A DNA stretch of 64,000 nucleotides, from NCBI GenBank assembly GCA_943355055.1, contig CALREA010000002.1, positions 1-64,000 on the forward strand, given 5' to 3'. Made by a program: the position numbers and the translations under genes. This DNA is from Candidatus Peribacteria bacterium. Its GTDB lineage: Bacteria; Patescibacteriota; Gracilibacteria; UBA1369; UBA12463. The notes beneath the pieces are model-generated. The model ran no database searches. It was not told the origin of the DNA and saw nothing but the letters and a program-made list of their open reading frames with translations. Shown piece after piece: positions 62,210 to 62,974 of the stretch (position 1 is its first letter; each line of letters starts with the position of its first letter).

Positions 62210-62974
62210 TTATCGTGGAACTGCTGTCGTGTTTGGTACTCTGAATAGTGGGTCGATGATGTTTGTCGTACCTGGCTTGAAAGCCGGATCTACAATACTT
62301 GTTTCATGATTCTTCTTGAACGCAGGGTCTACAATAAAGGCTGGATCAACAATGTTTGTTTCTCCTGGCTTGAATAGCGGATCAATGATGCTCGTCGCCC
62401 CTGGTTTGAATAATGGGTCGATGATACTCGTGGATGGAACAAAGTTTCTGTTATTTCTTGCGTTTCTTATTTTTTCCAAAAGACTTAGCTTGGGTGATGT
62501 TTCTTCTTCATCCATGGCAGCTCCGGATGTTGCCTGATCTTCTTTCTTGAATAGGGGGTCGATGATGCCGGTTTCAGGTTTCTTATCGTCCTTGAAGAGA
62601 GGGTCAATGATGTCAATATCGTCATTGTTTTTTTCGAGCAGTTTCTTTATTCTTAATTTTCTATTTTGAATTTTCGAGTCTTCTTTTTTGAATAATGGAT
62701 CAATGATGCTTGCTTCATCGTTTATCTCGGTAGTTTTTTTAAATAGCGGATCGATAATCGCTGAATTATTATTTCTATTTTCAGCCTTTTTAAGCTTCAT
62801 TTTTTCCTTATTTTTCTTGAGTCTTTCCTTGATCGCCTCCGCTCTGGATAGTACGTTATCCGCTTTGGTTAACGTAGCTGTCACGTTGATAGTCGTGCTG
62901 GCGTTCGCTACGAATGTTGAAAGAATGAAGACGGAAATGAGTCCGATGCCGATAATGGTGTTTGATTTTTTCAT
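62210..62974 (-). CDS. Exported protein with ten I[IV]DP[LA]F[K/R]-type repeats
   Basis: N-terminal signal-like MKKSNTIIGIGLISVFILSTFVANA, then repeated IIDPLFK/IVDPAFK motifs. Confidence 0.8.
   Translation of the reverse strand: MKKSNTIIGIGLISVFILSTFVANASTTINVTATLTKADNVLSRAEAIKERLKKNKEKMKLKKAENRNNNSAIIDPLFKKTTEINDEASIIDPLFKKEDSKIQNRKLRIKKLLEKNNDDIDIIDPLFKDDKKPETGIIDPLFKKEDQATSGAAMDEEETSPKLSLLEKIRNARNNRNFVPSTSIIDPLFKPGATSIIDPLFKPGETNIVDPAFIVDPAFKKNHETSIVDPAFKPGTTNIIDPLFRVPNTTAVPR

Follow-up and report, generated by a model that had tools for sequence, protein, structure and literature searches.

The window analysed here, a stretch of 64,000 nucleotides of contig C2 in the source genome (G000; 1.14 Mb, 96% complete), contains on its minus strand a gene of 254 codons in one open frame (62210-62974, signal region included) that encodes a protein of 254 amino acids with a repeated short motif; the plus-strand reading of the same segment was ruled out because that frame is full of stops. 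On the minus strand, the gene order is pyruvate kinase (upstream of the array gene), the array gene, ruvC (downstream), an exported TPR protein, a prepilin peptidase (A24), iPGM, and a mannose-1-phosphate guanylyltransferase-like (ManC-like) gene, which makes this a housekeeping block rather than an island dedicated to secretion or defence. A syntenic ortholog that is 50% identical and contains six IIDPLF copies (L022, 1432-2139, minus strand) is present in a genome of the same genus, the Lake Pavin Peregrinibacteria MAG LacPavin_0818_WC45_MAG_45_40 (CPR; hereafter G001). The start of the array gene is preceded by a Shine-Dalgarno-like GGAGAAAG (62983-62990, minus strand), with AGGAAAAG in the corresponding position upstream of the G001 ortholog, and TTGACAAAC, further upstream, is common to both genomes.

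Elsewhere in the window, a 233-residue frame on the minus strand (55787-56488) has no Pfam match, and an internal Met opens a lipoprotein-like signal, MAKLLTATMAAVSAC. Its counterparts in G001 and in a third congener, G003, located at apparently the same place (L155:7986-8681 and L156:12857-13513), show 40% mutual identity, compared with 85-90% for the neighbours, such that this frame is a candidate fast-evolving surface lipoprotein.

The array protein begins with a predicted Sec-type signal peptide (residues 1-25, MKKSNTIIGIGLISVFILSTFVANA; 62900-62974), which consists of KK, a hydrophobic stretch, and VANA followed by S; there is no lipobox Cys, nor any Cys in the entire protein. The signal call, made by inspection and from conservation (20 of the 25 residues are identical in the ortholog, and both signals end in VANA), agrees with the signal-like N-terminus described in an earlier, sequence-only reading of this DNA. 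After the predicted cleavage, the mature protein comprises 229 residues, with no covalent or membrane anchor visible in its sequence. That reading had also counted ten copies of I[IV]DP[LA]F, and we recovered exactly these on the minus-strand frame: six IIDPLFK (hexapeptides of motifs 1-6 at 62741-62758, 62690-62707, 62594-62611, 62549-62566, 62408-62425, and 62372-62389), three IVDPAF (motif 7, 62336-62353, which directly abuts motif 8, and motifs 8 and 9, 62318-62335 and 62279-62296, both followed by K), and one IIDPLFR (motif 10, 62243-62260). Composition-preserving shuffles of the mature protein yielded a mean of 0.0002 motif copies and a maximum of 1. The start-to-start spacings of 17, 32, 15, 47, 12, 12, 6, 13, and 12 residues are irregular overall, as previously described, except that the C-terminal part comes close to a 12-residue unit (for example, SIIDPLFKPGAT/SIIDPLFKPGET). 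The residue preceding the motif is S, N, A, G, or D in all copies but the abutting one, and the residue that follows is K or R in 9 of the 10 copies (4 of 6 in the ortholog). Cys, Trp, and Tyr are all absent from the mature chain, and Phe is nearly confined to the motifs (10 of 11 residues, and 6 of 6 in the ortholog), which we count in favour of a motif array; the motifs also hold 27 of the 49 aliphatic residues (I, L, and V), the chain being otherwise rich in K, D, N, E, and T.

An AlphaFold2 model of the array protein has a mean pLDDT of 55 and a pTM of 0.17, with 121 of the 254 residues below pLDDT 50, values that, given an input alignment of two rows, are weak evidence of disorder. Apart from the signal (helix at residues 9-24), helices are modelled at residues 31-67 (62774-62884; pLDDT about 80-84 at residues 41-60), 97-117 (62624-62686), and 165-174 (62453-62482), the remainder being mostly below pLDDT 50. 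All three mature helices are basic, with net charges of +7, +5, and +4, and of +7, +2, and +3 for the corresponding segments of G001, and each is followed on its C-terminal side by one or more motifs. This arrangement suggests a helix-linker-motif module that would occur three times over, with amplification of the final motif. Outside the helices, the protein is likely to be disordered. A beta or alpha solenoid repeat is not supported, given the spacings of 6-47 residues and the low pTM, in line with the earlier view that the repeats are unlike a folded solenoid.

All copies of IIDPLF differ from one another in DNA, 7 of 7 in G000 and 6 of 6 in G001, and among copies pS reaches 0.89 and 0.93, respectively, against pN of 0.11 and 0.04 (pN/pS of 0.12 and 0.04). 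TRF found no DNA tandem repeat in the array gene, which, together with the saturated synonymous differences, rules out recent DNA tandem duplication. Given that the copies differ in DNA, with pS of about 0.9 and low pN, the duplications are old, and the hexapeptide is the target of selection. Silent sites vary among the three IVDPAF copies as well, which makes IVDPAF look like a retained second version, rather than decay. Between the two species, purifying selection is stronger on the motifs than on the linkers, as expected of a disordered motif array, with dN of 0.17 and 0.53, respectively, the motif value being inflated because the numbers of aligned copies are unequal and because IVDPAF variants are included. 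The aligned linkers are 40% identical, linker lengths vary, and there are 10 motif copies in G000 but 6 in G001, a pattern consistent with a multivalent array rather than with a fixed fold. Besides the signal, a linker block, QATSGAAMD (62510-62536), is kept in the ortholog (9 of 9 residues). The proposal of the sequence-only reading that the repeats are short linear motifs is supported insofar as selection acts on the hexapeptide, not on the linkers or the DNA.

The clustering of almost every aromatic residue, and of over half the aliphatic ones, in recurring hydrophobic patches, together with the freedom of the copy number to change, would also be expected if the hexapeptides were stickers that associate with one another while the charged linkers and helices maintained solubility; the protein would then assemble outside the cell into a gel, condensate, or coat. 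Such a matrix, however, depends more on composition than on exact sequence, whereas D-P and F have been strictly retained while synonymous change reached saturation, which points to a specific pocket; moreover, Pro and Asp in the middle of a hydrophobic patch disfavour beta aggregation. We regard self-association as unlikely.

The main rival, which was absent from the sequence-only reading, fits the same conservation pattern: the protein could be a multi-copy peptide precursor, exported and cut by extracellular proteases at the basic residues after the motifs and near the small or polar residue before them, to release peptides of 6-8 residues (IIDPLFK) that would act as a pheromone or a short antagonistic peptide. 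The consistent flanks of the motifs agree with such processing, and so does the comparison with the duplicated Phr propeptides of Bacillus, in which the export region and the pheromone copies are conserved and the remainder is variable, with as many as eight copies of one pheromone reported (PMC11343458), much as the signal (80% identity) and the motifs are conserved here against linkers at about 40%. Import of the peptides would be possible as well, because oligopeptide-binding proteins (PF00496) are encoded in G000, G001, and G003, but these proteins do not discriminate between the readings, being present also in the congener that lacks the array. Against a precursor, the mature protein of 229 residues is far above Phr size (the Phr3T propeptide has 24 residues after signal cleavage; PMC11343458), it retains basic helices in both species as well as the exact QATSGAAMD block, and its two abutting copies have no basic residue between them. 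Furthermore, no cognate receptor gene was found among the neighbours, which are glycolytic, ruvC, TPR, and prepilin-peptidase genes. On balance, we consider a precursor unlikely, if a serious contender.

A profile HMM search across 360 genomes of the class produced convincing matches only in G000 (E = 2e-145) and G001 (E = 2e-125), the remaining matches (E from 0.003 to 0.7) being unconvincing. The array gene is a genus-restricted orphan. In G003 (RuvC 91% identical), it is cleanly absent, and hence dispensable: only a short gap separates pyruvate kinase from ruvC, in which TTGCAGCTT, the sequence that follows the array, is retained, as is the element upstream of ruvC. In the shared gene block, G001 is grouped with G003 by 36 informative sites, G000 with G003 by 20, and G000 with G001 by 10, whereas a two-gene tree of pyruvate kinase and RuvC joins G000 and G001 weakly (88/91). 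We prefer the larger site set, under which G003 is apparently the sister of G001, without firm confidence; with this grouping, loss of the array gene in G003 is the simplest reading, although the matter is not settled. In G004 to G007, the pyruvate kinase-ruvC gap contains nothing of size. The gap of G002 (L047, approximately 1572-1878) holds a different frame of about 100 amino acids with several hydrophobic stretches, which resembles a membrane protein; unrelated genes have thus occupied this intergenic position within the genus.

The same comparison bears on the exported TPR protein, whose gene (60042-61652) lies two genes downstream of the array gene; the array protein could be a ligand for it, with the motifs bound in the TPR groove. 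Both proteins look exported and belong to one gene block, and TPR domains commonly bind short linear peptides. Nevertheless, the TPR gene is also present in G003, G002, and G005, where the array was not found, and its proximity belongs to the conserved housekeeping order, which makes this pairing highly improbable.

Searches for relatives of the protein, and for its motif elsewhere, were consistent with the earlier statement that no family could be recognised. The best scores were 13.5 bits in Pfam (27 needed) and 12.4 in NCBIfam (160 needed); PHROGs (best E-values of 0.041 for the array protein and 0.013 for the ortholog) and PDB (best E-value 0.39, over helical regions) contained no convincing relative, tblastn revealed none in phages, and the string IIDPLF was absent from the papers searched. 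A search for related loci seeded with the helix and signal stretches confirmed nothing, which is weak evidence of absence. The sequence-only reading had further suggested looking for single-copy tags on other exported proteins, and here it was not upheld, since none was found. Across the G000 genome, the DNA pattern RTHGAYCCNBYNTTY matched the 10 array copies and 10 other sites, three of them in longer frames, namely, a tRNA synthetase-like frame of 826 residues (IDPAF), a frame of 207 residues (IDPSF), and a secreted-looking frame of 746 residues (VDPVF), and the others in short frames. The 746-residue frame (L021, G000:C34, from base 1) has repeated Ig-like/FlgD-like segments, and its VDPVF is at chance level. 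Stricter motif patterns matched only the array copies in G000 and G001.

Beyond these two genomes, a two-copy DNA pattern applied to the GTDB r220 genomes recovered the G001 array, which served as the positive control, and no other comparable array, with the proviso that some arrays could escape this pattern, which is limited to GAT in the first of the two copies and to linkers of 3-13 residues. Frames from Myxococcales and Proteobacteria with three IVDPAF-like stretches were rejected as they read like beta-helix proteins. A contig of a Rickettsiales MAG (L077, 2872-3663) has repeated pattern matches, yet only a 97-codon frame; its four two-copy matches are spaced by 260, 217, and 260 bases and resemble a repeat interspersed in the DNA rather than an array within a protein. 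The nine pattern matches in viral contigs included no array frame.

Taken as a whole, the earlier interpretation is partly supported, and the reading that we tentatively favour, with somewhat less than even confidence, is that of a secreted, largely disordered scaffold that displays many copies of a short linear binding motif, [small]-I-[IV]-D-P-[LA]-F-[KR]. The protein would be exported through Sec and relieved of its signal peptide, whereupon the three basic helices (individual net charges between +2 and +7 across both species) might hold it on an anionic surface, be it the cell envelope, an extracellular polymer, or a neighbouring cell. The I[IV]DP[LA]F hexapeptides, carried on hydrophilic linkers of free length, would then fit into a receptor's hydrophobic pocket, and the multivalency would provide avidity, which would explain why changes in copy number and linkers are tolerated. 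Several observations speak against such an array: no candidate receptor or partner was found; a conserved signal and conserved motifs with free linkers fit multi-copy pheromone propeptides equally well; the two copies that abut without a linker are awkward for independent docking; and the gene is dispensable and its product lacks a visible anchor.

A more specific possibility, which we find doubtful although conceivable, is a dedicated motif-receptor system of a CPR bacterium, in which an array of secreted I[IV]DP[LA]F ligands would let the cell attach to a host or sister cell, or communicate with it, via an undescribed receptor; within a single genus, the system would have been both gained and lost. 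CPR bacteria are regarded as dependent on other cells, and the exported CPR proteins that make cell contact or carry signals are, to our knowledge, largely unknown. A genus-restricted exported protein whose hexapeptide has been kept by selection despite saturated synonymous change offers a concrete seven-residue probe for a partner, and its presence or absence among three close congeners provides a natural contrast.

The kind of protein described here, an exported motif array or a multi-copy peptide precursor, is known, whereas this family and its motif are absent from the libraries searched. Among the known systems, the Phr propeptides of Bacillus and its phages (Rap-Phr, RRNPPA family) resemble the array protein in combining a Sec signal with several copies of a short conserved peptide in variable number, but the array protein is far longer, possesses basic helices and a further conserved block, and has neither an adjacent receptor gene nor any sequence relation to Phr. 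The cytosolic endocytic adaptors of eukaryotes, Eps15, epsin, and AP180, carry disordered DPF/DPW arrays that are similar in the irregular placement of Asp-Pro motifs with an aromatic residue along a disordered, charged chain and in the use of avidity; the motif here is I[IV]DP[LA]F and an AP2-like receptor is not to be assumed, so the likeness is one of principle. The fibronectin-binding repeats of the FnBPA type in staphylococci and streptococci are likewise numerous copies of a ligand motif on a disordered chain that is exported, but these repeats are much longer and the protein that carries them is anchored to the cell wall via LPXTG, whereas the array protein has no anchor of this type.
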